Source: Bacteroidota bacterium (lineage in GTDB: Bacteria > Bacteroidota > Bacteroidia > AKYH767-A > 2013-40CM-41-45). From it: a stretch of 48,764 bases of DNA. A program made the translations under genes and the position numbers. Where the stretch lies: positions 1 through 48,764 of the forward strand of contig PLYJ01000044.1 in assembly GCA_003151745.1 (NCBI GenBank), read 5' to 3'. Shown piece after piece: positions 17,157 through 43,942 of this stretch (positions within the stretch are counted from its first letter, which is position 1; each line of letters opens with the position of its first letter). Under the pieces are notes generated by a model. That model was given only the letters and a program-made list of their open reading frames with translations. It searched no databases and was not told the DNA's origin.

Positions 17157-17822
17157 ATGAAAAAACCTATTATCGTTACAAAAACAAAGTGGTATGAGTT
17201 CGAGAAAGTTAGAAATCTTGGCTTATCAGTTTATGACAGCATGAATCTGAACAACAATTTCATTAATCCACAGCCTTCGATGGCCATTATAATGGCAAGC
17301 ACTGATGATGTTACAGAGGCTCTTGGCAAATGGGGGCCTGTTGGCAACAGAGGTTCACATCAGGATTACGTGGTTCTGCAATTAAAATCGAAAACGTTGC
17401 ACATGCGCCTCACGCAATTGGGCGCATGGTGCATGAGCAGCCTTGATGTGGGCTTGTCGTATGCTGACCAAGCTGCAATTCTTGTTACTTCAGGCTTTCC
17501 GCTCAAGAACCCGGGAGCGCATGTAGGCAAGCTGGAAATGGTTCAGGGCTTTCATCGGGTCTTTGCAGGAAATTTAAATGAATGGGATATTAAACTAAAA
17601 TGGAGCAAGCCATTAGGTGTTGCAACTATCACGAATGTTAAAAGCTATATTATTTATCGTAACACAACAAATAGTTTTTCCACTTCTTCTGTTATAGCAG
17701 CTGTTCCTAATACCACGTATATAGATGTGCCGGGCACAGGCTCGTGGTTTTATTGGGTTGTCCCGGTCAATAATATGGGCAATGGTGTTCCAAGTCAGGC
17801 AGTGATAGCCAAAATTCTATAA
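17157..17822 (+). CDS. FN3-like protein, WGxxGNRGSH family (copy A)
   Basis: A 221-residue protein of a family with four members in this window. The N-terminal half (about 1-120) is mostly helical and contains the family motif WGPVGNRGSHQDYV (about 60-73). The C-terminal half (about 130-221) looks like one fibronectin type III domain (IKLKWSKPLG, VKSYIIYRNTT, SWFYWVVPVN). No signal peptide or membrane segment is seen, which is unusual for an FN3 protein. Function is unknown. It stands outside the island, away from copies B-D, and is preceded by the second 21-bp array. Start: ATG in MKKPIIVTKTK matches the paralogues (MAKPIIAIKTR). Confidence 0.82.
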   Translation: MKKPIIVTKTKWYEFEKVRNLGLSVYDSMNLNNNFINPQPSMAIIMASTDDVTEALGKWGPVGNRGSHQDYVVLQLKSKTLHMRLTQLGAWCMSSLDVGLSYADQAAILVTSGFPLKNPGAHVGKLEMVQGFHRVFAGNLNEWDIKLKWSKPLGVATITNVKSYIIYRNTTNSFSTSSVIAAVPNTTYIDVPGTGSWFYWVVPVNNMGNGVPSQAVIAKIL

Positions 17823-29286: not shown

Positions 29287-29360
29287 GGTCCCGTAGCTTA
29301 ACTGAATAGAGCATCTGACTACGGATCAGAAGGTTGGGGGTTTGAATCCCTCCGGGATCA
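29287..29360 (+). tRNA. tRNA-Arg (anticodon ACG)
   Basis: A 74-nt cloverleaf. Acceptor GGTCCCG (29287-29293) pairs with CGGGATC (29353-29359), discriminator A. The anticodon stem TCTGA/TCAGA encloses the loop CTACGGA, giving anticodon ACG (arginine, CGU). The T arm GGGGG/CCCTC encloses TTTGAAT. It marks the left border of the accessory island; tRNA-Arg genes are common integration sites. Confidence 0.95.
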
Positions 29361-29363
29361 CTA

Positions 29364-29540: not shown

Positions 29541-30054
29541 AAACAGGTACAAGATACATTCATTTGCTTCAAAATGCAAGGAATATTTCAACTATTTATC
29601 AACAGCAAACCCGCACCGGAAGAGACATGCAGATAAATTTCCGCTCTTGATTTTCTTGCTTTTCTCTTTGCGTATCGGTTCAATTTGGAAACGCAAGAGC
29701 AGAGATTTTTCCGCTTCCCTTCTCCTGGTCGGTTCGGTTAAACAGATATGCCGCATTTTTTCTTCTTCATTAGGTCTTTACGCTCGGTTTCAAGGTCGCA
29801 CGGAATCCATTAAGGGAAATACTCCAAACGCAAAAAGCCATTGAAAACGCTTAGGCAACCATTTATTCGTGGGAGGGCTGAATTGCAAGGTTGATGGTCA
29901 AATTTTTTTATTCACCTAAAATTATTCATAAAAAAAATTGAAATCACCCGAAGGGCTTGACCTTGAAAGGGCGTTGGCGGGATTATCTTTGCCTAAGTGT
30001 TTGCAAGGGCGGAAAGAAAAATAATTCCTATAAAATTTTTAAAGATTTGTTTTT
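29541..30054. other. Gene-free stretch at island left end
   Basis: There is no credible gene. A plus-strand frame over 29458-29844 has atypical composition and no recognisable domain, so it is not called. The only signal is a promoter-like pair near 29962-29991. Confidence 0.5.
29962..29991 (+). promoter_or_regulatory. Promoter-like element facing FN3-like gene B antisense
   Basis: CTTG (29962-29965), 18 bp, then TATCTTTG (29984-29991) closely fits the Bacteroidota promoter. It points into the 3' end of the minus-strand gene B, with no plus-strand gene beyond, so it could drive an antisense or small RNA. Confidence 0.4.
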
Positions 30055-30714
30055 TTAAGGAAGAAGAGCAACGGATGCTAAACACACATCGCTTGTAACT
30101 CCGGCACCGGAAGCGCCAACGGGAACAACCCAAAAGTAATATGTGTTAAGTGTAAGGCCGCTCTGAATGATTGAAGTTTTTGTGACTGTGGCGACTAATG
30201 CTGCGGTTGAAAAAGTTGAAACCGTATTACGATATACGTTGTATGCGTTTACAACGCCGTAGGCGGTGTCTAAGGGACGTTTCCAACGTAGTTTGACTTG
30301 ACCGTAGCTGATGGTCTTAGAAAGGAACTGACGAAGATTTTGGACAGCAGGCAGCGGTCCCGTTAAACTTTTAGGGTTCTTGATCTCCCAACCGCATGAA
30401 ACGAACGCAGTTTCGTTGTAAGGCGTTGTGATTTCACAATAGTTTGCTAACGCTGTGAGGTCAATCATTAATGTTGCACGGGCTGTGAGCAACTCGACGT
30501 GGGTTTGATGTGATCCACGGTTGCCGACAGAACCCCAGGCGGTTACTTTATTAGAGAAGGCGGTAAGATCGGTTTGAATTGTTGCAAGCGGTGGATTTGG
30601 CGTTGCATAGAAAGCGTTGCCAGTCAGGTTGGTTATCAAGGCAGTGGTAAATGATTCAAGGGCTGTATTTGACAGCCTTGCTAAGCGGAGCTTTATTGTT
30701 GGCTTATTTTGCAT
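30055..30714 (-). CDS. FN3-like protein, WGxxGNRGSH family (copy B)
   Basis: A 219-residue member of the four-copy family. The N-terminal helical part contains WGSVGNRGSHQTHVELL, and the C-terminal FN3-like part contains VKLRWKRPLD, VNAYNVYRNT and TYYFWVVPVG. A longer frame reaches 30777, but the ATG at 30712-30714 (MQNKPTIKLRLAR) aligns with the starts of the other copies and gives the same length, so I use it. It is the most diverged copy of the island, nearest the tRNA. It has no signal peptide and its function is unknown. Confidence 0.75.
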   Translation of the reverse strand: MQNKPTIKLRLARLSNTALESFTTALITNLTGNAFYATPNPPLATIQTDLTAFSNKVTAWGSVGNRGSHQTHVELLTARATLMIDLTALANYCEITTPYNETAFVSCGWEIKNPKSLTGPLPAVQNLRQFLSKTISYGQVKLRWKRPLDTAYGVVNAYNVYRNTVSTFSTAALVATVTKTSIIQSGLTLNTYYFWVVPVGASGAGVTSDVCLASVALLP

Positions 30715-31325
30715 GAATAGCGATACTATAAACCTGATAAATTTCCGAATGTGTTTCATCAGATTTTTAATGACCATAAAATTACGACAAGCTACTGAAT
30801 ATAGTTATGTCAATCGTTGCGCAATAAGAGGCATAACGGTATTTCCTAAACCATATTCACCTGAAAATAGAGAAATGATGTCTTAATCGCCAAAAAAGTA
30901 GTGTTACTTTTTATCAATGTCAGCTAACAAAGCAAAAAAGTAAGACTACTTTTTATTGATGTGAGTTGTGTTTGAATTTAGTTGAGATTTTATCGGAACG
31001 AAGTGAGATTAAATCGAAACAAGGTTGTTTATGTTCCTTGCCGGGTAACATATTGTCGAATCAAATTAAGTCAACCGCAAAACAAGGCAACATATAGCGA
31101 AAGCAGATACAGACATTCTTAATCCAATAACAGATTTCCTTTTTGCCTCTTTGGTTATAAGGGGTGGGCGGGCGGGGAAGGCAAGGCAAGGGTGGCGACT
31201 GAAGGCAGGAAAAAAATTGGTTGGGTGGAATGAAGCACTGTTAATTTGCTTTCATACGTTGGCAATGAGGGATGGCGAAAGCAAATTGCAGGGCGAAATG
31301 GAACGAAGCGTAGGAATTTTTTTGC

Positions 31326-31960
31326 TGACTGAATGGAGCTACTCTTGCGTGCGTTGCTGAAGTGAGAGAAATGAATGAAGTGAAGTAGAGAAGCGGAACG
31401 GAGACGAACGAAGAGAGACGAAGTGCAGCGGAACGGATGAACGTAATGAATGAACTGACTGCAAGCAAAGGATGATTTTCATTTTCCTTTATTTCCTTTT
31501 CGCTTTGTTTTCTTTTTTCGATTCCTATATATCTTCCAATAGGGCGCTTGCTGTACGTCCTTTTCAAGGTTCATACTTACTGATTGATCGCCAACAGGGT
31601 ATTTTATGTGTTTGCCTTTGGAAGATTTATTTTTCTTCACGTCTTTTCCTTTTTCCAAAGGTATTGCTTTGAAGTTTTAATTGTGCAGTTGCGCGGGATG
31701 GCAAAAGCAGGTCTGTGACTGAATGGAGTTTCCGGCGAAGCGGAAACGAAATGAAGGAACAGTGCTGCGTGCGGTGTCGAAACGTGAGAACGAAACGAAT
31801 GAACGTCTGACGAAAGGAACGGAATGGAGTCGAACGAAGGGAGACGAAATGAAGAGGATTGAGGAAATAGAGAATGAAGTTGAGTGAACGGGTTGCAGAC
31901 ACAAGGAAAGTGTGAGGGAATTTTATTTTTTTATTTCCTGCATTTATTTTCTTCCTTTCT
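31326..31960. repeat. Duplicated purine-then-pyrimidine segments
   Basis: The identical 13-mer TGACTGAATGGAG occurs at 31326-31338 and 31716-31728. Each is followed by a TGCGTGCG-type word, about 100-150 bases of GAACGAAG-like purine DNA containing GAGACGAA, then a GCAAG/GCAGACA word and a T/C-rich run with TTTATTTCC. The order is the same in both, so the segments look like diverged direct duplicates. Confidence 0.55.
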
Positions 31961-32018
31961 TATTTGAGCGTTGGGAAAAATTGAATCAGGTTATACAGCC
32001 TTGAGCCAGTAGTGGGAG

Positions 32019-32049
32019 AGCGGTTGCAATATTTCATTGCAATTCCGCT
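32019..32049 (+). other. Hairpin with bulge in gene-free DNA
   Basis: AGCGGTTGCAAT (32019-32030) pairs with ATTGCAA (32036-32042) and, after a TT bulge, CCGCT (32045-32049). The stem is 12 bp with a 5-nt loop. It is one of several strong hairpins in the purine-rich block. Confidence 0.7.
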
Positions 32050-32384
32050 GTGCTGTGAGCCGTCTTGCGAGTGGAGCAAAGGGGGGAAGCAAAGAAAGTG
32101 TAGTTTTTCACGGAACGTTTGCGACCTCTGTTCTTCACACAAGGGATGTCGTTTTTTTTGTTCCATTAAGTAAAAGAGAAAAGATTACAAAAAAGACGAC
32201 AGCCCGCAGCCCTTTTGCGACAGCAGGCGAGCACAAAACAATTGCGGCGGAGGACGGCAGGCAGAGTGAACGGATTGAAGCGAAAACTTGCAGCGAAAAG
32301 TAGTTGAACTGTGCCTGCCGGACTGAGTAGCCGCAAGATGACGACGACGAAATGAACTGCAAGCACTGTGACAACTTTTGCTTT

Positions 32385-32457
32385 TTCAGCAAACCCGCAG
32401 GGCATGAGGCTTCCTGCCTACCATAAGTAAGTTATAAAGAAAGGCAGGGTTGCTGAA
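32385..32457 (+). other. Nested hairpin in gene-free DNA
   Basis: TTCAGCAAACCC (32385-32396) pairs with GGGTTGCTGAA (32447-32457) with one bulged A. Inside, CCTGCCT (32413-32419) can pair with AGGCAGG (32442-32448), sharing two bases with the outer stem. The arrangement is what a structured RNA would show. Confidence 0.6.
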
Positions 32458-32642
32458 TGAGTTGGCGCTGTGCTTTGCGGAATGAGGAGGAGGAACACAT
32501 TATAACCTGTTCAATTTTTGTGCGGTGGGCGTTTTCTTTTTTTCTTCATGAGTAAAGGCGTGGTGCAACACACACCATAAGTTTTAGTTTTTAGTTTCTT
32601 GTTTGGGATTTCTTCGCTGCGTTTGGAATGACTGGAAAAGAT

Positions 32643-32699: not shown

Positions 32700-33386
32700 T
32701 TACATGCTTGGAACGGTTACCGTTACAGCGTTAGATAATACTCCTTCACCATTGGTGTTTAAAGGAACAATCCAATATGACCATGTTACGGAAGCACTTG
32801 TGCTATTGGTATCAATGAAGGATGATTTTGTAGTTGTTGCTATCTGCTTAGCAGCAGAGAAAACGACTGTTGTTCCTCTATATATGTTGTAAGATTTAAC
32901 GTTACCGGCTGTTGCAGTGTTAAGCGGTTTTTTCCATTTTATCTTAACCTGGTTGCCGTTGAGCTTGCGCGAAACGAAGTTGTGAAAGCTCTGCACCATT
33001 TGAAGAACGCCTTGCGGATTCTTTGGATTTGAAAACTGATAACCGCTTGTTACGATTATTGCACCCATTGCATTATAATCGCTACCTGCTGCTGTCTGTA
33101 CGGTGTTCTGCACATATTGAGCAAGTGATTTCAGCATTTGCGAAAGCGTTAGCGCCTTTTGGCGAAGATCAACAAGCGAAGCATGGGAGCCACGATTTCC
33201 TTTAGAACCCCAAACAGCAATGGCGGTTTCAACGTCTGTAACAGCGGATTGAAGCGAAAGCAATGTTGGTGATGGGGTTGTGAAATTTGCGTTGCCAGTC
33301 ATGCTAACTACAATACGATTGGCAAGATTGACAAGCCCTGCGTAGGCAGTTGTTCTGAGTTTGATTGCAATGATAGGTTTTGCCAT
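32700..33386 (-). CDS. FN3-like protein, WGxxGNRGSH family (copy C)
   Basis: A 228-residue protein, the downstream member of a tandem pair with copy D. By hand count about 78% of residues are identical over the full equal length, so the pair is a fairly recent duplication. Helical N-terminal half with VWGSKGNRGSHASLVDL (about 58-74). FN3-like C-terminal half with VKIKWKKPLN, VKSYNIYRGTT and WSYWIVPLN, ending VTVTVPSM. No signal peptide, function unknown. An intrinsic terminator lies immediately upstream (end of gene D), and I see no TAnnTTTG element in the gap, so expression of C may need read-through. Confidence 0.85.
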   Translation of the reverse strand: MAKPIIAIKLRTTAYAGLVNLANRIVVSMTGNANFTTPSPTLLSLQSAVTDVETAIAVWGSKGNRGSHASLVDLRQKALTLSQMLKSLAQYVQNTVQTAAGSDYNAMGAIIVTSGYQFSNPKNPQGVLQMVQSFHNFVSRKLNGNQVKIKWKKPLNTATAGNVKSYNIYRGTTVVFSAAKQIATTTKSSFIDTNSTSASVTWSYWIVPLNTNGEGVLSNAVTVTVPSM

Positions 33387-33469: not shown

Positions 33470-34156
33470 TTACATGCTTGGAACGGTAACCGTTACTGCG
33501 TTGGATACTACTCCTACACCGTTGGTGTTGACGGGAGCAATCCAATATGACCATGATACGGAAGCACTTGTGCTGTTCGTATCAATGAAAGATGTTTTGG
33601 TAGTAGATGCTAACTGCACGGCAGCAGAGAATACAGAAGTTGTTCCCCTGTAAACATTGTAGGATTTAACGTTACCGGCTGATGCAGTGTTAAGTGGCTT
33701 TTTCCATTTCATCTTCACCTGGTTGGCGTTGAGCTTACGCGAAACGAAGTTGTGAAAGCCCTGCACCATCTGAAGAGTGCCTTGCGGATTCTTTGGATTT
33801 GAAAGTTGAAAACCACTTGTAGTGATAACTGCTGCCATCAATGCGTAATCACTTCCGGCTGCTGTTTGGGCGGTGTTCTGCACATACTGAGCAAGTGATT
33901 TAATGGTTTGAGAAAGTGTAAGTGCCTTTGTCTTTAAATCAACAAGGGAAGCGTGAGAACCACGATTGCCTCTTGGCCCCCAAACTGCAATTGCATTAAC
34001 CACATCAGTTATTGCTGTTTGAAGTACGGCAAGTGCCGGTGCCGGGGTTGCGTAACTTAAATTTCCTGTTAAACTTGCAACAACGCGATTGCCAAGATTG
34101 ACAAGTGCTGCGTAAGCAGTAACGCGGGTTTTGATTGCTATAATTGGCTTTGCCAT
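33470..34156 (-). CDS. FN3-like protein, WGxxGNRGSH family (copy D)
   Basis: A 228-residue tandem partner of copy C. Family motif VWGPRGNRGSHASLVDL, followed by a helix rich in Thr/Gln/Leu (ALTLSQTIKSLAQYVQNT). The FN3-like C-terminal domain has VKMKWKKPLN, VKSYNVYRGTT and WSYWIAPVN. The strictly shared features of all four copies are the GNRGSH motif, a SGxxxxNPK/NPG turn in the middle, and the W-x-KPL and YWxxPVN/LN strands of the FN3 part. No secretion signal. A TACATTTG promoter element lies 31 bp upstream on its strand. Confidence 0.85.
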   Translation of the reverse strand: MAKPIIAIKTRVTAYAALVNLGNRVVASLTGNLSYATPAPALAVLQTAITDVVNAIAVWGPRGNRGSHASLVDLKTKALTLSQTIKSLAQYVQNTAQTAAGSDYALMAAVITTSGFQLSNPKNPQGTLQMVQGFHNFVSRKLNANQVKMKWKKPLNTASAGNVKSYNVYRGTTSVFSAAVQLASTTKTSFIDTNSTSASVSWSYWIAPVNTNGVGVVSNAVTVTVPSM

Positions 34157-34195: not shown

Positions 34196-35160
34196 TGGCA
34201 GTAAATTCTTTTGGATGTCATGAATAAAGATGCAGGAGGAAGCGAAGGGAAGCACATTTTTAGCATGGAAGCAAATTCGTATCATTTTTCAAAAACTATG
34301 CCCTTACACTACTCTTAATTTAAAGCAAGGTACTATCAAGCCGGGAAGTGGGGTGAGCACAAAAGCGAAACCGAACGGCTGTCCAGCGAAGCGAGGCGAC
34401 TGTTTAGGGAGACGTAGCGAAAGCGGGTTATTACGAGCAGCCCGCCGCGTGAGGGGCGAAGGCTCAGACGCTGAACGGCAGAGAAGCGTTTGAGCCTGAG
34501 ACGCACCCCGAATGCACAGCGTAACGACTGAGGGAGTGACCCTGTTGGCTTGAGCGTTGGCGGAACGGTGGAAGAAGTGAAGCGAGGAGCGGCGGGTTGC
34601 GGAACACTATATATTCAATGCTATAATCTTTCAGCCACACCCCTGCCCTCTCCGAAGGAGAGGGATAATGGCTGTTTTTGTGCATGACTGAACTGAGTGG
34701 AGTTGTAACGTAGCCGAAGTCGGACGAAGTCCGACGAAGGCGAAGAGAAAACGGAACGAAGGAAGTGATGCACGGCTGTTTGAGCGAAGTTCGCGTAGTG
34801 TAGCCGGAGTCGGACGAAGTCTGACGGAGGCGAAACGAGCGGACTGAGCGAATGTATTTGGCTGTTGCAAGGTTGCTGCATACCGCAAGGAATGAAGGTA
34901 GCGTAACGTAGGCGTAGCTTGCTACGCCGAAGTAAGCGGACGTAATGACTGAGGATATGTAGCTACCGTATTTGTTTTGAGCAAACAGGGCATGACGGGC
35001 AAAGTCTGTCATGCTTTGTTTGCGATTGCATTAGGGATTGTAACGGAAATCCTTTTCTGTTTACAGAAAAGATTGTAGAGGAAAGCCCGACTTGGAAGGG
35101 AATGCCCAAATGGTTTTATACACAGGTAGGGGTTTAAAAAAAGGGTGCAAAGGTACTGCT
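34196..35160. other. Purine-rich gene-free structured DNA (block 2)
   Basis: About 1 kb without a credible gene. The plus strand is rich in GCGAAG, GGCGA and GAACGG words. Strong hairpins: GGCTCAGACGC/GCGTTTGAGCC (34461-34496, one mismatch), CCCTCTCC/GGAGAGGG (34646-34664) and GGCGTAGC/GCTACGCC (34911-34928, 2-nt loop). The density of perfect stems is well above that of the flanking genes. Confidence 0.6.
34710..34834 (+). repeat. Two 35-bp hairpin-bearing direct repeats
   Basis: Bases 34710-34744 and 34800-34834 match at 31 of 35 positions, spaced 90 bp. Each contains TCGGAC-GAA-GTCCGA or the variant TCGGAC-GAA-GTCTGA. The single change in the second arm keeps a G-U pair, so the stem is preserved at RNA level. 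Confidence 0.75.
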
Positions 35161-35214: not shown

Positions 35215-36000
35215 TTGAATAGTTTAGAGAATTATATTACGAAAATCAATGAAAGCACGATTAGTGCTTTTGCGCGTTCATACAATGTTTTGGACTATTC
35301 GCACAAACTCAGAGAAATTTTATCCTCACTCCTTCCTGAAAATGATTTCAGTAACAGCACAAAATTAGAACTGCATAATACAATCAATTACATTTTAACA
35401 AAACGATATAAAGGTGAAAGTGGATTGAAGGCAAAACTCGTTGCAATGTTTGTTAAAGAAAATGTTACTGCCGCTTTCGAGATAAGGGTGAATAATAGCC
35501 GGATTGATTTTCTAACAATCAATGGAGACACGAAAAGCTACGAGATAAAATCAGGAATTGATAATTTAGACAAACTTGCGAAGCAAGTGAGTGACTACGA
35601 AAGGGTTTTTGAGTACAATTACATAGTAATTGACGAAAAACATTTATTAGCGGCAAAAAAAATAATCCCTGAGCACTATGGGATTTACGTGTTGGAAAAA
35701 GAAAAATTAGTTAAGAAAAAAGAGGCTGAACAAAATTGTTGTTTAAAACCTGAAATGCAACTACAACTTTTTACGAAAAAAGAATTAGGACAGCAATTCA
35801 AAGGGGTTGAAACTACTGTTGCGAAAATTGCGAAGCAATTTACAGCAACAGAAATCAATGAGAGTTTCAAAACGATGTTGAAGAAACGATATGAAAAGCG
35901 GTGGGCATTTCTTAAACAAAATATGAGCGAAATATTACCGATAGATTACCAATTCTTTTTTCATCACAACATTCAACCGAAAGTAATTTACGGGGCTTAG
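35215..36000 (+). CDS. sce7726-like PD-(D/E)XK nuclease-type protein
   Basis: A 261-residue soluble protein. The central region shows a restriction-endonuclease-like core: SRIDFL (Asp98) and SYEIKSG (Glu110, Lys112), followed by DKLAKQVSDYERVFEYNYIVID, as in sce7726 family proteins of defence islands. The helical N-terminus (1-85) and C-terminus (180-261) are less conserved. The likely start is TTG (35215-35217), as no ATG fits. A TAACTTTA element lies 30 bp before it. The gene is convergent with and overlaps by 4 bp the sce7725-like gene, its usual family partner. Nuclease activity is inferred from the motif only. Confidence 0.75.
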   Translation: MNSLENYITKINESTISAFARSYNVLDYSHKLREILSSLLPENDFSNSTKLELHNTINYILTKRYKGESGLKAKLVAMFVKENVTAAFEIRVNNSRIDFLTINGDTKSYEIKSGIDNLDKLAKQVSDYERVFEYNYIVIDEKHLLAAKKIIPEHYGIYVLEKEKLVKKKEAEQNCCLKPEMQLQLFTKKELGQQFKGVETTVAKIAKQFTATEINESFKTMLKKRYEKRWAFLKQNMSEILPIDYQFFFHHNIQPKVIYGA

Positions 36001-37067
36001 TGAATAACTCCTGATGCAATCGCTGTTTTGACACAGTGTAAATAGTGTTCTATTGAAATCCTTTTGAACTTTGCCTGGCTCTTTCCGCTTTCGCCACCGG
36101 TACTGATATTTTGCAAAATGCTCCATCCAACATTGTCTGCATTTAAGTAGTTAGGATCAGCAGCACGAATAGCTGTTGCCACGGGTGAAGCCAAAACATC
36201 CGGAACTATAGTTGTTTCAAACTCTGCAAGATTTTTTACATCCCCTTTGTAGCCATAATATAAGTTGTCAGCAGGGTTGTAAAGAATGAAGCCCGGACTA
36301 ATTGTTCCGCCTGATGTTAAGTCGTCTTTTTTTATACCAACATAATCACCAAAAGCATTGAAGTGAAATTGTCCAAACATTTCTAACAAACTATTGTCTG
36401 CTTCATAAACAATATCACCATGATTAAGGCGAACATTTTGAATATCCGTATTGATAGCACTTCTTAGAGCAACTTTCCACGGCAGAGCAATAGTGTCAAG
36501 AGTGGTTCTATCTTTCTTTATTACAGGGTTTGTTAAACCTACCCCTTCCTGAATATCATAAATTAAAAAGTCATCTGCTGTAAGCAATGCACTAATCTCA
36601 GCTAAATCACTGTTGAACGTGTTTGTGAAAGTTCTTATCGCAACTGATGAAAACGTTTGTTTTAAGTTTTGAAATTGTTGAGTGATTGTGTTTTGTTGAC
36701 CTGTCTTAATTAGCAAAGTAGAAACTACTGGAATAACTTTTGGGTGCTGTGCTGCAAACAAATTGTAATGGGCAAGCCGGTTATCAATGTTCGATAAAAC
36801 AGTCCTATTGAATGATACAACTTCATCCTGCATACCTGATGCATCTCGGATATAAGTGGGTAAATCAACAAATACTTTATCAGAGTGAATTGCAACAATA
36901 AGGTCAGAATATATCTCTTGAAAAGTGTGTTGATTATTTGACCTATCCTTTTCTTTAACAATTTCAATCAATGGAAACATTTTGGTACCAAAGTCAAATG
37001 AACGAAGAACAATCATTTCTTGCTGTCTCGCCCTGAAAGTTGGCATGTAAAGTAAGTTACTCGGCAT
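35997..37067 (-). CDS. sce7725-like / beta family protein
   Basis: A 356-residue soluble protein. The N-terminus LYMPTFRARQQEMIVLRSF...MFPLIEIVKEK matches what I recall of sce7725 and beta family proteins (Y-P-x-R-x-x-E-L start followed by a PxIEP-like strand), which occur beside sce7726 nucleases. The alternation of strands and helices suggests a TIM-barrel-like fold, an inference. Molecular role is unknown. It is the last gene of the minus-strand operon. Its ATG overlaps the stop of the cyclase-like gene by 11 bp, and its stop overlaps that of the convergent sce7726-like gene. Confidence 0.72.
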   Translation of the reverse strand: MPSNLLYMPTFRARQQEMIVLRSFDFGTKMFPLIEIVKEKDRSNNQHTFQEIYSDLIVAIHSDKVFVDLPTYIRDASGMQDEVVSFNRTVLSNIDNRLAHYNLFAAQHPKVIPVVSTLLIKTGQQNTITQQFQNLKQTFSSVAIRTFTNTFNSDLAEISALLTADDFLIYDIQEGVGLTNPVIKKDRTTLDTIALPWKVALRSAINTDIQNVRLNHGDIVYEADNSLLEMFGQFHFNAFGDYVGIKKDDLTSGGTISPGFILYNPADNLYYGYKGDVKNLAEFETTIVPDVLASPVATAIRAADPNYLNADNVGWSILQNISTGGESGKSQAKFKRISIEHYLHCVKTAIASGVIH

Positions 37068-37878
37068 ATTCTGTAATTTTTAGTGATTTGATTTTTTCTA
37101 TTTCTTCATTATCAGGGACAAAGTCCTTTTCCAAAAACATCATTTCATTTAGGTAATCATCAATGAATTGATTTAATTCCCTTGCGAGCCATTCGTATTT
37201 GATTGCAATTTTTTCTTTTGTCTGATTTAAAGCAAGGTTTTGAAGTATTGAGCTATGCATTGTTTCAAGAAGCTCAATTATGTTTTCATTGTTAACCAAA
37301 TAAAAAAATGTATTAAGGTAGGATACTTCACAATGTTGTTTAATAAGATAATTTTTTTGAATGATGTAATTTTCACTTATCAAATTGTTCTCAGCATAGT
37401 TGTCAAGTAATTTAGTGTAATTAGGAGAAAGAACTATGCGGGGATATATTGCAACATCTTTTTCAAGTGTAACTGCACAAGCCAAAGGAACACCAACTGC
37501 AATTTCCTTTTCATCAATAAACTTTCCCACATCTAAGCCACCTCTCAGAAAATAACCTTTCTGTGCAAATTTAAAAAACAAATCATTGATAGTGTTAAGA
37601 ATATCAATCAATAGGTCGCGATTTGCTTCAAAGTCAATAGTGATGCAGATATTATCGGAGAAAAGATAATAAGTAAAATCCTTTTCATCCAAAATGCTTA
37701 CTACACTCTTGAAAGTATTAATAAATTCATTTACTGCTTTAGATATATAAAACTCTGAATCCTCCTCCTCTTTGTTCTTTATGGCTTCATTTTGGAACTC
37801 TACTAATTTTGCATGAAAGCCTAATATGTCAAGGAAAACTACTGCTCTGTTTTGATATATGTATTGTTCGTTTGCCAT
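37057..37878 (-). CDS. Class III nucleotidyl-cyclase-like protein
   Basis: A 273-residue soluble protein with a single class III cyclase-like domain (about 8-180). The metal-binding motif VVFLDILGFH (Asp17) starts the first strand. LFSDNICITID (Asp75) supplies the second metal ligand, and FLRGGLDVGK (110-119) matches the RxGxxxG dimer-loop strand. Both metal Asp residues are present, so catalysis is plausible. Substrate-selecting residues cannot be assigned. The C-terminal part (about 185-273) is helical and unfamiliar. Pyrimidine cyclases of Pycsar anti-phage systems have this fold, but no Pycsar-type membrane or TIR effector is adjacent. It overlaps the sce7725-like gene start by 11 bp. Confidence 0.72.
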   Translation of the reverse strand: MANEQYIYQNRAVVFLDILGFHAKLVEFQNEAIKNKEEEDSEFYISKAVNEFINTFKSVVSILDEKDFTYYLFSDNICITIDFEANRDLLIDILNTINDLFFKFAQKGYFLRGGLDVGKFIDEKEIAVGVPLACAVTLEKDVAIYPRIVLSPNYTKLLDNYAENNLISENYIIQKNYLIKQHCEVSYLNTFFYLVNNENIIELLETMHSSILQNLALNQTKEKIAIKYEWLARELNQFIDDYLNEMMFLEKDFVPDNEEIEKIKSLKITEYAE

Positions 37879-37899
37879 TCCTTTCTCGTAACTCCTATT

Positions 37900-38220
37900 T
37901 TAGCTAAGCAATTCTAAATATTCCTTCAAAAGCATTTCAGAGGGCTTAATAATTTCACGCTCGTATTTATTAATGAGCGGGTGGCGTGTGAATTTGGTGC
38001 GGAAATCATAAAGAAGGTAGTTGTATATCCAAATGTCTTGCCATATATATGGATGGGTTCGCATTTTTTCAAAATCAAAATAGCGTTTAAGGATTGTCAG
38101 AAACTTTCTGTCCTGCTTGGGATTTTCTTTTCCTAAGTCGTCTTTAATCTTTGCGATTTGCTCCTGCGTTAAGTACCGGCTAACAGCAATGAAAATTATG
38201 TATCGGGGTGAAGGTCTCAT
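37900..38220 (-). CDS. Small unknown protein of the defence-type operon
   Basis: A 106-residue protein I do not recognise. It is basic and aromatic-rich (FEKMRTHPYIWQDIWIYNYLLYDF) and probably all-helical, with no membrane segment. Its ATG overlaps the stop of the DprA-like gene by 4 bp (ATGA type), and it ends 21 bp before the cyclase-like start, so it is firmly within the operon. It may be an adaptor or effector, with no direct evidence. Confidence 0.7.
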   Translation of the reverse strand: MRPSPRYIIFIAVSRYLTQEQIAKIKDDLGKENPKQDRKFLTILKRYFDFEKMRTHPYIWQDIWIYNYLLYDFRTKFTRHPLINKYEREIIKPSEMLLKEYLELLS

Positions 38221-38708
38221 TTAGTTTCTTCCAACATTTTTTCTTTAGAAAACAATGTTGTGATTGGTTTTTGAATTGAGTAAAGCAACATTTCTAACTG
38301 ACCGCCGGGACTGGCATAACCAACGGTTATGCTGTCTGCTATTTCAAGCATCATCTTGTTTCTTGTTGCTGCTGTTTCTTCTGTTACTCTTTTTATTTTT
38401 TTCTCAAAGGGGGTTACGATTAGTAACCTCCCCTGCTCTATTGGGAGTTGAAACTCGGTTTCAACTTTTTCTTTTAGACCTCTTGCAAGGGCAACGATGA
38501 TGGGTTGCTTGCCTTTTAGAAGGTAATGCAAAACATCTTTTTCTAATTGAGAATGAAACCCACTAATGATGCAGTTGCCTTGCTCCCTCTGCTCTATTGC
38601 CCAATCATAGCATTTAAGGACTACCGATGCAGGCGTTTTGCGACTGCATAAGAAAGCTGTTTTGTGCAGCTTCAATATTTCAGTATTACCATGAGTTGCT
38701 TTTATCAT
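38217..38708 (-). CDS. DprA/SLOG-like nucleotide-binding protein
   Basis: A 163-residue single Rossmann-like domain. FLCSRKTPASVVLKCYDWA, CIISGFHSQLEKDVLHYLLKGKQPIIVALARGL and the late ATRNKMMLEIADSITVGYASPGGQL follow the DprA order of motifs (SRxxS, SGxxxxxD-like, RN, SGG-like). DprA's C-terminal winged helix is absent, so this is not the transformation protein itself. SLOG-fold proteins bind nucleotides or ssDNA and several act as sensors in defence systems. It overlaps the methylase stop by 4 bp (ATGA). Confidence 0.7.
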   Translation of the reverse strand: MIKATHGNTEILKLHKTAFLCSRKTPASVVLKCYDWAIEQREQGNCIISGFHSQLEKDVLHYLLKGKQPIIVALARGLKEKVETEFQLPIEQGRLLIVTPFEKKIKRVTEETAATRNKMMLEIADSITVGYASPGGQLEMLLYSIQKPITTLFSKEKMLEETK

Positions 38709-41362
38709 TCATCATTTGAGCTTTCAAGTTCTTTGCTCATTCTGTATTTATAATCATAATTAATTAAAAAATCTATCTCTTCATCATTAAAGCCGTAGTG
38801 CTCAGATAAGACTTTATCAATCTCATCCATTGTATTTTTCGACTGAGATTTATTATATGTTATCGTTTCATTGCTACCTCTGGTTTTGCTGTTTATGGTA
38901 TATGAAGTTGCATTTTTCAAAAGTTCTTTCTCCAATTTGTCAGAAAGTTTAACCAATTTTTGTTCAATAGCTTTATCATTAGGATAGTTAGACTTGAATC
39001 CAAAAATCATATAATCTTTAAAATTAAATTGGTCAAAGTTTATCGAATAATACCACCAAAATAAATTTGAATTAAGGACTGCTGAAAAAACTTTTGAATT
39101 ATATTCCTTCTGAAACGAAGCTGCTTTATTACTTAGAGATTCTGTATCGAAATCTTCATTCAAAATTGTAACCCAATAACCACCACCAGCAGTACGATAA
39201 AATATTTTATTATTTGCAGCATTGCTATTACTTAGAAAGTTCCTAATCTCTTTGTGCTTTAAATATTTATTTAGAATTGATGTTTCTATAACAGAACCAA
39301 TTTTCAGTAATTGTTTTTGATTTGATTGGTCGGCAGCAACATAAGATAGGTTAGTAAAAAGAAGATTTCTCGTTTCAGATTTCCATCTATAAACAATTGT
39401 GGAATACATTCCTTTGATTGCACTCTGCTTGTAAACTATAAATATTGAAAGACGCTGTAAAACTCCTTCAAACAATGCGGCTGGTCTTTGGTGATAATTG
39501 GAAACATACGAAAGAGGAAACCTTTTAAATAACGTTTGAACAGTTTCCATACTTGCATTGGAAAAGGCACTAATAGGAATAATCATTCCCATTAATCCAT
39601 TTTTGTTTAAAATATTATTGCTTCTTTCAATTACAAATCCGTAAAGATTTGCGCACTTCTCGGTTTCATAATTCTTTATCCTATAATCATCACGAACTTT
39701 TGAGTATTCAACATACGGAGGGTTGCCAATGATAATATCAAAACCATTATTATCGTGCATTATTTCATAGAACTCGGCAAACCAATGGAAGGGCTTGTAT
39801 TTATCAAGCCATTTATCATATTTTAATCCATCTGCTTGCTTATATAAAAGCATGTTCAGTTCGCGGTTTAATTCCCTCAATCGTTCCTCCAAAGTTAATT
39901 TGTCGCGCTTAACCGTTTTGTAATCTCTTACTGTTACTTGGCTATTTTTAAAGTTTCTGTAAGCCATTGAAACAATTTCCATTTTTTCAGTAATGGCCGG
40001 TTTTGCAAGTTGTCCATCAAGAGTATAATTCAATGCCTTGTCCAACTCAGAATCTGTACCAAAGCCAATTAATGTATTTCCTGAACGAATATTGAAATCA
40101 ATATCCGGTAGCGGTTCTAATCCTAAGTTTGGTTTCCGATAATCAACCTCAACAGTTGCCACTAATTTAAGGAACAAGCGCAGCTTGGCGATTTCAACCG
40201 CTTCTTTCATTATGTCCACTCCATAAAGGTTGCGGAGGATAATGTTTTTGTAAATGAAGTAACTCAGGTTGGGATGTTCAGGGGCTGTAACCTGTGCAAT
40301 GGTTTCTTCAAAGAATTTGTATCTTCCTTTAGGGGCATCATTGACAAAGTTTTGCATACGTTGTATGCACTGCTCATACAGTTCTTCCAAAATATTCATT
40401 GCAGCAAAGAGGAAAGCTCCTGAACCGCAAGTGGGGTCAATGATGCTAACGCTGTTTAGTGCCTTGTAAAATGATTTCAGAAACTCAGGGTCATTGGTAT
40501 TGGCTAAGCAGTCAATGGCAAACTGACGGACGTTGAGATTGTATGTGATGAAATCATTGATGTTTTGTATTTCACCCTTTTCAATCTTGCTTTTTATTAC
40601 GCTGTATCGGGTACGGCGGTCAATTACTTCCCTCCATATTTCAGTAGGCAAGGCAAATTGTTCCTGAGCTTGCTTATTCCATTCTGTTCTTGCACTGACG
40701 TTTTTAATTCCGGCTGCAATTTCATCAGGCAATTTTTCATCCACTCCTTTTTTAACCGCATCGTAGATGTAGTTATTGTTGCTTTGCTTCACCATTTGCC
40801 ATAACTCGGCATCAGGTAAAAATGCTTTAGCATTTTGCCGTTTAGTTTCTTCAAACAAGAAAGGAAGAATGCAATTCTTACTGATGTAATCGGTTATATC
40901 TTCTTTGGTGTAGTATGCACCCATGTCAGCCCTGTCATTGATGTATTTCTCAAAGATGTAACCGATAACATCAGGGTTGATGTCTTTCCCTGTAGCGGTA
41001 ATGCGCGTGTCAAGATGCCATTCGTACTGGTCGAAAAAATCGAAAATCCTTTCAGCTAACCTCTTTTTTAGTTTTACTGCTTCGGCTGTGTCAATGATGT
41101 GTTCTCCATCTTCGCGGAAATGTTCACGCAAAATATCAATGCCCGTTTTCTGCATACCGACAAGCAATCGGCAAATGCGGTGAACATCATCGTTGCCTTC
41201 TGTAACTGTCGTACCCTGCAAGCTGTCAATTTTTGCAGCTACTTCCTTCCATCCTCTCAGGTTGAAATAGCCAACGCAAAAGTCTGTGCGGTGGGATAAC
41301 TCTAAGGTTTCATTTAAACCTTTTGTGAGTTGGTGTTCTATATTGTCGTAAATTTTCGGCAT
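38705..41362 (-). CDS. N6-adenine DNA methylase, Eco57I-type, with chimeric N-terminus
   Basis: An 885-residue methylase. S-adenosylmethionine-binding motif I is DPTCGSGAF (309-317) and catalytic motif IV is NPPY (547-550). The segment MGAYYTKEDITDYI (147-160) is typical of Eco57I/PglX-like enzymes. The C-terminal third (about 560-885) should be the target recognition region. Residues 1-73 (MPKIYDNIEHQLTKGLNETL, then FCVGYFNLRGWK and CRLLVGMQKTG) do not belong to this family. They match the start of PLD-domain DEAD/DEAH helicases from similar loci, from memory. No nuclease motif is seen in the chain. First gene of the operon. Confidence 0.82.
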   Translation of the reverse strand: MPKIYDNIEHQLTKGLNETLELSHRTDFCVGYFNLRGWKEVAAKIDSLQGTTVTEGNDDVHRICRLLVGMQKTGIDILREHFREDGEHIIDTAEAVKLKKRLAERIFDFFDQYEWHLDTRITATGKDINPDVIGYIFEKYINDRADMGAYYTKEDITDYISKNCILPFLFEETKRQNAKAFLPDAELWQMVKQSNNNYIYDAVKKGVDEKLPDEIAAGIKNVSARTEWNKQAQEQFALPTEIWREVIDRRTRYSVIKSKIEKGEIQNINDFITYNLNVRQFAIDCLANTNDPEFLKSFYKALNSVSIIDPTCGSGAFLFAAMNILEELYEQCIQRMQNFVNDAPKGRYKFFEETIAQVTAPEHPNLSYFIYKNIILRNLYGVDIMKEAVEIAKLRLFLKLVATVEVDYRKPNLGLEPLPDIDFNIRSGNTLIGFGTDSELDKALNYTLDGQLAKPAITEKMEIVSMAYRNFKNSQVTVRDYKTVKRDKLTLEERLRELNRELNMLLYKQADGLKYDKWLDKYKPFHWFAEFYEIMHDNNGFDIIIGNPPYVEYSKVRDDYRIKNYETEKCANLYGFVIERSNNILNKNGLMGMIIPISAFSNASMETVQTLFKRFPLSYVSNYHQRPAALFEGVLQRLSIFIVYKQSAIKGMYSTIVYRWKSETRNLLFTNLSYVAADQSNQKQLLKIGSVIETSILNKYLKHKEIRNFLSNSNAANNKIFYRTAGGGYWVTILNEDFDTESLSNKAASFQKEYNSKVFSAVLNSNLFWWYYSINFDQFNFKDYMIFGFKSNYPNDKAIEQKLVKLSDKLEKELLKNATSYTINSKTRGSNETITYNKSQSKNTMDEIDKVLSEHYGFNDEEIDFLINYDYKYRMSKELESSNDE

Positions 41363-41433
41363 ACTTTCAGTGCAAAGGAGTGCGAAAATATGGTAAAAAG
41401 GTGATAATTCAGGATATTTTTAAAGCATATAGC

Positions 41434-42552
41434 TCATTGGCTTACCGTTTGGAGAGTTTGCCAATTAATAGGAAGTAATGTTGAAAAGAGTTTCTCGGCT
41501 TCATCCTTGTCAATGTAGGTGGGGATGTGCAGGCGTTTGTTGTATGCTTCGGGGCTTTCATACACTGCTATTCGTTTTGGGTCTATCGGCATGGGGATGT
41601 AAAATTTGCCGTCTGTGCCTATGAAGGGGGTTTCGATAAGCTGCTCCTGGGGTTCCCGGGTAGGTTCCCGAAAAACCGGGGGGTGATCAGGGTTCTTTGC
41701 GGCGAAGGGGTATTTATTGTGGCTGTCTGCTTGAGTAGTGTAAACATGCCTTACAATGTCTGTGATTTCCGCTTCGGGGAAATCAGGTTGAACATAGTTC
41801 AAACAACCGTTTAAGGTTTCGCCTTCGGTCAAACCTTTTAGGTTGCAATACCGGGCAAGAGCAATGACGTAGGCATGGCGATTGTCTTTTACAAAGGCAT
41901 GACTTTTATTTATCTGCTCGTTGCACCATTGAAAAGCATTTTCAGGCGTTCCTGCGGCACCGCCTGACGGGTAACTGTGTTTGATGTGATGGAAAGTTTT
42001 TTCAGCAGGAAGCAAGGCATAAGGCTTTGCAGCGTGGTTAAAGATTTGGGTTGTGTTATCATTCCATGAAACAAAGCGGGGCTGTGAAATGGCTTTATGG
42101 CACTCGTCACCCATTGGCAAACCCAAATCATTGAATGACTGAATAAGCCGTTGATAATGCTTTTCATATTTATCAGGGTAAAGAAAAGGCACTATGCAGT
42201 AAAGCCTTTTGCCCCTGCATGATAGCCCGACATAAGCAATACAATCAAGTTTTTTGAGTTCATTGAGAAGATGGGGAATGTCGTAATCTTCGGCGCTGTC
42301 GAGATCAACGGCTGCAAGTCCTGAACGTATGAGTATTCCTTCCTCACATCTACGGCTGAATGTTCCGGCAACTGTAAAACAGGGTAGATTGTCTTTGAGT
42401 TGCTTTTGCACTTCTGCCGTGCTTGCACGGAGATTTACTATTCGTTCTTTATGCTTATCACTTTGAAGAAGGGTAAGTAAATTTACATCTATCCCTTGCG
42501 TAGTTGCGCTTTTTGATGGGAAATAACTGATTATCTTATTTAAAATGCTCAT
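41434..42552 (-). CDS. BT4734/VirE-N domain protein (primase-like)
   Basis: A 372-residue protein. The N-terminal 200 residues, with LRASTAEVQKQLKDNLPCFTVAGTFSRR...LAAVDLDSAEDYD and GLSCRGKRLYCIVPF, match the BT4734-like / VirE N-terminal domain, related to archaeo-eukaryotic primases. Asp and Ser/Arg residues are at the expected places. A helical PriCT-like region follows (about 205-275, CNEQINKSHAFVKDNRHAYVIALARYCN). It is found in mobile elements of Bacteroidota together with D5 helicases, as here (gap of 85 bp to the helicase gene upstream). Likely role: priming replication of the element. Confidence 0.82.
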   Translation of the reverse strand: MSILNKIISYFPSKSATTQGIDVNLLTLLQSDKHKERIVNLRASTAEVQKQLKDNLPCFTVAGTFSRRCEEGILIRSGLAAVDLDSAEDYDIPHLLNELKKLDCIAYVGLSCRGKRLYCIVPFLYPDKYEKHYQRLIQSFNDLGLPMGDECHKAISQPRFVSWNDNTTQIFNHAAKPYALLPAEKTFHHIKHSYPSGGAAGTPENAFQWCNEQINKSHAFVKDNRHAYVIALARYCNLKGLTEGETLNGCLNYVQPDFPEAEITDIVRHVYTTQADSHNKYPFAAKNPDHPPVFREPTREPQEQLIETPFIGTDGKFYIPMPIDPKRIAVYESPEAYNKRLHIPTYIDKDEAEKLFSTLLPINWQTLQTVSQ

Positions 42553-42637
42553 AAAAAATGATCTTTATAGGTTACACTTTTGCACTTTTACACTAACCCG
42601 AATTTTATGAGGGTGAAGAAGTGTAGAAGTGTACGGG

Positions 42638-43942
42638 CTAAAACACATTTTTTGTCATGTTAAAATGGTACCCATCATTTCTCCTTGTCTTTTCAAAACC
42701 TTTTCGTTCCAACCGTTGAGAAAATTTATTTTTACCTACCGGCTTGTAACCATCCTCACCGCAAAAGGTTTTGTAATAGCCGTATAATTCTGTCAACGCT
42801 ACTTTGTAAATATCTGAGGACTGATAGTTGTGCTCCTCGATAAACAACTGAACGCTGTCGCTCTGCTTGCGGAACTCACCTAATGCTGCATTTGCTTTGC
42901 TACAGTCGCTGAATTTTCCTTGCTTAATGATTCTATTTAATCCGCCTAAAAGCCAGTTAAACACACCGGGCAACTCATTTGCAATTATTTTTCTTGCAAG
43001 CTCACTATCTCTATCTTCCGGCTTTATATATGTATCAAAAGGAACTATTAAATATCTTTCAAAATATGCGTTGGTTTGTTCGGTCTCTCTTGGCAGTTCA
43101 TTAGCGTTCATTATAAATCTAACTTTATTACGAAGTGTAAAACTTCTGCCATAAGGTTCTCTTGCTTGCTGCGGCTCACCACTTATAAGGGCTTTAAAGG
43201 TTTCTACATTCAAATCGGTCCCCTTCTCACTGCTGTAATTTAAAAGTACATTAGTAAGTTTAGCTCTATGATATTCATGATTAAATAAACCGAGGGAATA
43301 AGTGAGTATGTTTTTAACACCTATCAAAGCTTGCAGTACATTAAAGAAAACACTTTTGCCGTTCCTTCCGCTACCATATAACACAAGCATTTTTTCAAAG
43401 TGAAACGATGTAAAAATATATCCTGCAAATTCCTGTAATATCGTCCTGCTTTCTTCATCGGGCAGGACTTGCGAAAGGTAATTATCATATATAGGACAAA
43501 CGGCATCCTCTTCATAACTGAAAGGTAACTGATATGTCAGGAAATCATTAGCATTAAAATCTCTCAATGCTCCTCCGCCAGGAGTAAATTCAAACGTGCC
43601 ATTTTGCAGATTGATCAGGATTTTTTCAGCTTCAGCCGGAGGGGGTGGCAAATGGCCGTCAGTTAAAAATTGTTTCAATAGCTTGTCCTTAAATTCAAAA
43701 TGTCTTGCATCATAGTCAGGGCAGCCCATTTTAATTGCGACTTTGCCTAAGAAGGCTTTCATATCTTCTTTATCGAGTTGCTGCCAAAAAGCACCGTTAA
43801 AGACGTAGGTGTAATCATAGACTTTTGATAAATTCCATTGCTTATTCTTTGCTACTTCTAAGAGATTTTTTATGACAGCTACAATGATGTGCTTCTGCTT
43901 TATATCTGTGCCGGGACATGAAAAAGTTAAGTCAAAACACAT
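42638..43942 (-). CDS. D5/P4-type SF3 primase-helicase
   Basis: A 434-residue superfamily 3 helicase of phage and plasmid type. The Walker A GSGRNGKS is at 190-197, Walker B/C lies in the LNYSSEKGTDLNVETFKALISGEP and RFIMNANELPRE stretches, and the Arg finger is in the NAYFERYLIVPF strand. The N-terminal D5_N-like part (about 15-170) contains FNGAFWQQLDKED and LQNGTFEF. The C-terminus has a winged-helix-like FSQRLERKGFEKTRRNDGYHF. It drives origin unwinding of a mobile element. It starts 88 bp after pstB on the same strand, so pst read-through is possible. Confidence 0.88.
   Translation of the reverse strand: MCFDLTFSCPGTDIKQKHIIVAVIKNLLEVAKNKQWNLSKVYDYTYVFNGAFWQQLDKEDMKAFLGKVAIKMGCPDYDARHFEFKDKLLKQFLTDGHLPPPPAEAEKILINLQNGTFEFTPGGGALRDFNANDFLTYQLPFSYEEDAVCPIYDNYLSQVLPDEESRTILQEFAGYIFTSFHFEKMLVLYGSGRNGKSVFFNVLQALIGVKNILTYSLGLFNHEYHRAKLTNVLLNYSSEKGTDLNVETFKALISGEPQQAREPYGRSFTLRNKVRFIMNANELPRETEQTNAYFERYLIVPFDTYIKPEDRDSELARKIIANELPGVFNWLLGGLNRIIKQGKFSDCSKANAALGEFRKQSDSVQLFIEEHNYQSSDIYKVALTELYGYYKTFCGEDGYKPVGKNKFSQRLERKGFEKTRRNDGYHFNMTKNVF

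Follow-up and report, generated by a model that had tools for sequence, protein, structure and literature searches.

The window analysed here (all 48,764 nt of contig PLYJ01000044.1, Bacteroidota bacterium assembly GCA_003151745.1) contains at positions 30715-32642 a tract that an initial annotation had described as gene-free and had put forward as a candidate long structured RNA, raising the question of what 1.9 kb of bacterial DNA specifies if it encodes no protein.

Composition and conserved fold of the tract

The absence of a gene was borne out, as the longest stop-free runs measure 54-110 codons across the six frames, no frame stays open among the homologues examined, and the sole listed ORF of the tract (31241-31567, minus strand) is without a Pfam match. 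On its left the tract begins exactly where the FN3-like gene at 30055-30714 starts. The proposed strand asymmetry is also real: the GC skew of +0.28 at 31-32 kb is the maximum of the window, and the words GAACG and CGAAG, said to be repeated, together occur 19 times on the + strand versus once on the minus strand, compared to 5.8 occurrences (sd 2.3, maximum 14) in dinucleotide shuffles. The description "purine-rich" holds locally, in unpaired loops, but not globally, the purine content of the tract being only 55.5%. Since repeated words and hairpins are weak proof when taken alone, we searched for relatives of the tract, and six other contigs of the same genome (4.6 Mb, 279 contigs) proved to carry copies or fragments of it at 72-88% identity.

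The initial observation holds at the coordinates given, with the correction that the tract is composite rather than uniform and has a recurrent core of only ~560 nt. The core (31970-32530, + strand) is supported by covariation, by a fold z-score of -7.5 and by covariance-model matches in 36 of 395 genomes (see below). The remainder comprises a 5' structured domain (31150-31480, + strand; fold z = -3.7) that by alignment and blastn is common to contigs C13 and C232 and to a compact copy on contig C241, a partial duplication of this domain (31690-31930, + strand, where 31815-31858 resembles 31389-31432) that is missing from the compact C241 copy, and spacer.

The core is closed by a long-range helix (31977-31995 with 32501-32519, + strand) joining bases ~500 nt from each other. 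Both of its sides have changed in sequence from copy to copy, reading CAGGTTATA/TATAACCTG in the window and CCGAAACGGAAA/TTTCCGTTTCGG in C241. A MAFFT alignment of six copies kept the 120 predicted pairs in 93.9% of cells, and 38 of these pairs underwent two-sided changes, versus 14.6±2.6 in shuffles and 3-12 in slid versions of the structure. An alignment of 27 members yielded two-sided changes in 14 of the 15 pairs of the main helix, with 95.8% of cells paired; because this larger alignment was fitted to the covariance model, the six-copy result is the cleaner test of covariation. The two hairpins that the initial annotation had singled out (32019-32049 and 32385-32457) exhibit compensatory changes as well (helix 3 and helices 12-16, respectively) and are parts of this larger conserved fold. 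Fold z-scores of -7.5 (window), -5.8 (C98), -5.7 (C241) and -4.2 (C13) were obtained for the cores, versus 0.1 to -1.7 for coding controls. The core is a structure of about 560-700 nt, composed of the closing helix and branched internal helices, that compensatory substitutions have preserved in many families. With homologues found and stems that covary strongly, the covariation check suggested at the outset came out in favour of a structured element, and we regard the tract as almost certainly containing one. That it is instead the remnant of a protein gene, or mere chance sequence, as its skewed composition and lack of annotation might suggest, is scarcely credible in view of the two-sided changes across families; no homologue has an intact reading frame, and a protein-coding version, which would have spoken for decay, was not encountered among the homologues examined.

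An alignment of 19 cores by MAFFT has sharp common ends (AGGTAAAACAGCCTTGAGC ... GAACACCnnTTTACCTG), with little shared outside. Loose words resembling direct repeats flank several of the aligned cores, with TGTGCGTTGG before the closing helix and TTGTGCGGTGGG after it. Promoter motifs are not enriched directly upstream of the core.

Many bases of the core are paired, and its minus strand consequently folds well too. The consensus energy is nonetheless better for the + strand (-93 versus -72 kcal/mol), and non-Watson-Crick cells at paired positions are G-U in 52 cases versus A-C in 5, a count taken on a structure picked by a method that credits G-U. Both results favour the + strand without distinguishing RNA from single-stranded DNA. 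They can also be accommodated if the conserved fold acts as single-stranded DNA, i.e. as a site at which a mobile element recombines, transfers or replicates (attC-like or rolling-circle-like) and whose + strand is cut or bound when an island moves: G-T wobble is possible in DNA, and folding of one particular strand would be explained as well. However, a branched structure of hundreds of nucleotides with conserved loops exceeds the known single-stranded DNA sites. On this and further evidence presented below, we consider a DNA site unlikely and the element probably an RNA.

Copies and islands in the genome of origin

The fuller copies within the genome are islands with a common order. A hairpin at the left end is followed by the minus-strand FN3-like gene A and the tract; next come cargo that varies from island to island, two more FN3-like genes (B and C), a right module and finally a Flavo-1 RNA. 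In the window, the left-end palindromic block (29830-30012, + strand) has arms that vary between copies and remain complementary (AAACGCTTAGGCAA/TTGCCTAAGTGTTT in the window, AACCTGATAGGCAA/TTGCCTATCAGGTT in C241), and within it lies the rightward-reading element TATCTTTG (29984-29991), which matches the Bacteroidota -7 element TAnnTTTG and, judging from this known consensus, perhaps serves as a promoter. Gene A (30055-30714, minus strand) is read against the RNA. The cargo slot is almost empty in the window, whereas it holds a methyltransferase gene in C13, a P-loop ATPase gene in C232 and other genes in C14. To its right follow genes B (32700-33386) and C (33470-34156), both on the minus strand, then the right noncoding module (34282-34988, + strand; common to C13, C14 and C232, with a fold z-score of only -1.6 for its first part) and, closing the island on its right, Flavo-1 (RF01705; 35026-35096, + strand), an Rfam match above cutoff. 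The C241 copy is far more compact, consisting within 1.2 kb (L013:5869-7092) of left hairpin, 5' domain, core and Flavo-1, with neither FN3-like gene nor cargo, and so demonstrates that the noncoding element is separable from its passengers.

Several features of these islands would suit a DNA site of the kind considered above, namely the palindromic left end, the shared modules that enclose variable cargo, and copies located at contig ends (C98, C144 and C254). Contig ends are expected for such copies, because repeats break assemblies. Two islands begin ~450 nt downstream of tRNA genes, which differ in identity (Arg and Val; 29287-29361 in the window and L009:3495-3570). We sought a duplicated tRNA 3' end as a trace of tRNA-targeted integration and found no such repeat, and this candidate was rejected. 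Right of Flavo-1, the window carries a cluster (35215-43942) with a gene of the Beta_protein family (PF14350) and a large gene that, read by eye, resembles a restriction-modification methylase; this is possibly another defence or mobile region.

The initial annotation had suspected a link between the tract and the FN3-like family, and this link proved weak, since only three FN3-like genes (type A) directly adjoin a tract copy versus 71 FN3-like matches in the genome. The proteins measure ~220-230 aa and have very many paralogues (in the window at 17157-17822, 30055-30714, 32700-33386 and 33470-34156), several of them at contig ends; they are without Pfam or NCBIfam match and are predicted to fold into N-terminal helices plus an FN3 domain. 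As 20 other FN3-like loci contain neither tract nor RNA, the family was rejected as a general partner.

RF01705 matched only 35026-35096 and not the tract; Flavo-1 is a separate ~76-nt motif that elsewhere usually stands alone. In the genome of the window Flavo-1 scores above cutoff five times, and each of these matches terminates an island copy on its right. In another genome (G023, locus L215) a structured gap ends in GAACACC with Flavo-1 following immediately, which varies the arrangement seen in the window. The idea that Flavo-1 is a regular component of the RNA was rejected: it is missing near most relatives, and Flavo-1 elsewhere, except in G023, lacks the upstream GAACACC block. Up to 36 Flavo-1 matches occur per genome (G105 and G017; L070-L089), mostly alone and away from the new RNA, in the manner of a dispersed repeat.

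Distribution of the family and its linkage to F249

Of 395 genomes of the class, 22 were matched by a first covariance model of the core (R1, 136 positions). Rebuilding the model from 27 members (R2) brought this to 36 of the 395, in 29 genera; since the training sequences match R2 by construction, the 14 further genomes beyond R1 form the independent part of this result. The window itself, whose sequence is in the training set, scores 102.9 bits at 32133-32266. Both models span only ~135 of 600 nt, and their E-values are rough. In a phylum-wide draw, all of the matches listed came from the same class, and most genomes with the RNA have one or two copies. Neither the tract nor the core matches Rfam 15. 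A phage origin was rejected, as phage and viral-contig searches returned no match for the RNA, F249 (see below) or the FN3-like protein. Plasmid searches returned nothing by DNA and a single plasmid (Marivirga) by F249 protein.

In other lineages, the partner protein belongs to a family different from the FN3-like one, an unannotated ~249-aa protein (F249) that is a frequent, not universal, companion of the RNA. F249 has no Pfam, NCBIfam or PHROG match, nor did a fold search return a confident PDB match. In 16 fetched loci F249 lies upstream of the RNA, on the same strand and at 1.2-4 kb, and the same side and strand recurred in all 19 F249-RNA loci found (these 16, a further G313 copy, the Marivirga plasmid and a weak match in G385), with distances of 1-5 kb overall and antisense genes intervening. 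The Marivirga plasmid was found through F249 alone, and the RNA was then located at the expected place. F249 is a low-copy gene, and 15 of its 19 strong copies lie within ~6 kb of the RNA in 20 tested genomes, 19 of which had been chosen as RNA carriers in other lineages, the last being that of the window. Across the 395 genomes F249 occurs in 43, the RNA in 36 and both in 17, versus 3.9 expected (p = 3.6e-9); about half of the RNA-positive genomes are without F249. An upstream F249 is not seen in the window either, as the gene is missing from the whole genome, which has FN3-like genes instead. The predicted architectures of the two proteins are similar (N-terminal helices plus a beta-sandwich); since homology between them is undetectable and most FN3-like loci are free of the RNA, we do not claim that FN3-like proteins replace F249. 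At several F249 loci without a model match, the downstream gaps are nevertheless strongly structured (z about -3.3 to -8.3 in most of L215, L223, L224, L228, L230 and L231, one of nine control segments also being low).

After F249 stands a ~80-aa hydrophobic protein, accompanied at some loci by a KLTKADAG-repeat protein or DUF5675; DUF6943 often comes next on the opposite strand. Small KLTKADAG-repeat proteins stand after F249 and the hydrophobic protein at L156, L162, L208 and L159. In the open-access literature DUF5675 appears in two phage papers only, and DUF6943 was not found. Locus L190 (G087:C1:47000-66000) carries a head-to-head inverted duplication of the unit formed by F249, the ~80-aa protein, DUF6943 and the RNA, with an IS110-family transposase gene on one side.

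This arrangement bears on three rival readings. A cis-acting role, as a riboswitch-like leader or as the 3' untranslated region of a neighbouring gene, would be in keeping with the frequent position of the RNA downstream of same-strand genes, as long structured 3' ends exist. The next downstream gene, however, varies in identity and is convergent in 25 of 38 loci, showing that the element is not a leader, and F249 stands 1-5 kb off with antisense genes between, which makes such a role very improbable. The element could also be a selfish or intron-like mobile RNA, a ribozyme that lacks a protein of its own and inserts itself between genes; the linkage to F249 and defence genes would then reflect shared insertion hotspots. 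Several diverged copies in one genome, the inverted pair with F249 and DUF6943 in G087 and the intergenic positions would fit this. Against it, the RNA copies, which are intergenic, match no group I or group II intron model, other genomes hold few copies, and the side and strand of F249 are constant, so that we consider such an RNA distinctly unlikely. The fixed same-strand placement downstream of F249 likewise argues against the single-stranded DNA site, to which the integrase or transposase genes at some loci and the one plasmid copy would lend support; no recombinase is consistently adjacent, and most genomes have one or two copies.

Among the neighbours of the RNA, PADLOC matched PDC-S68 (1100 bits), Old (758), type III restriction (515), AbiEi/AbiEii (224/348), PifA (242), BilC/BilD-like proteins and several methyltransferases, while none of ten genes from the housekeeping part of the window was matched. 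As the large neighbours were chosen by hand, the association with defence is an indication rather than a measured enrichment, and some RNA loci have ordinary neighbours.

A candidate large noncoding RNA of Bacteroidota

Weighing these results, we lean towards the view that the tract specifies an RNA which belongs to a new Bacteroidota family of large, structured, noncoding RNAs and acts in trans, probably as a ribonucleoprotein. The transcript would start on the + strand, in the window perhaps at the promoter-like element of the left hairpin, run antisense through FN3-like gene A and stop near Flavo-1; it would then fold into a stable particle acting in trans. This particle may be a ribonucleoprotein, probably with the small hydrophobic protein and F249, by analogy with the membrane-bound OLE RNA, and may serve, or ride on, mobile defence islands. 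Of these parts, the ribonucleoprotein mechanism is plausible yet somewhat doubtful, and a role in defence more doubtful still. A bolder version, in which the RNA belongs to an unrecognised Bacteroidota RNA-protein system, possibly antiviral, with a giant particle comprising F249 and the small hydrophobic protein (an FN3-like protein here), housed in mobile defence islands and equipped with Flavo-1 as an exchangeable 3' module, is conceivable and decidedly tentative.

Our best guess for the nearest functional analogy is OLE RNA, which is about 600 nt long and forms a membrane-associated ribonucleoprotein via protein partners (PMC12286853, PMC12265935). The new RNA resembles it in being ~600 nt long, highly structured, of low copy and linked to a small hydrophobic protein. 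By contrast, OLE is mostly a Bacillota family with its own Rfam model, which gave no match here, whether at the gathering score or with E relaxed to 5, and the linked proteins here are F249 and the ~80-aa hydrophobic protein, which was not identified as OapA. GOLLD and ROOL, encoded in phages and prophages (PMC12286853), are likewise very large structured RNAs in mobile contexts, a likeness to which the two copies near tRNA genes add, whereas the new RNA matches neither Rfam nor phage or viral contigs. HEARO/omega RNAs and IS110 bridge RNAs are structured RNAs encoded with mobile elements too, but the new RNA is much larger, has no Rfam match and is accompanied by no constant nuclease or transposase (one IS110, at L190). 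No earlier description was found in Rfam 15 or the open-access literature, so that the family is apparently undescribed so far; an earlier report in a 2017 set of 224 candidate RNAs is possible.

To our knowledge, bacteria have yielded very few structured RNAs of such great size (OLE, ROOL and GOLLD), with biochemical roles that are still open, and Flavo-1 is an Rfam family for which we know of no function since 2010. The new family gives Flavo-1 a genomic context in two lineages. With members in at least 29 genera, all from a single class, a recurrent gene neighbourhood and low copy number, it is directly testable, and its linkage to F249 provides a protein handle on the RNA.
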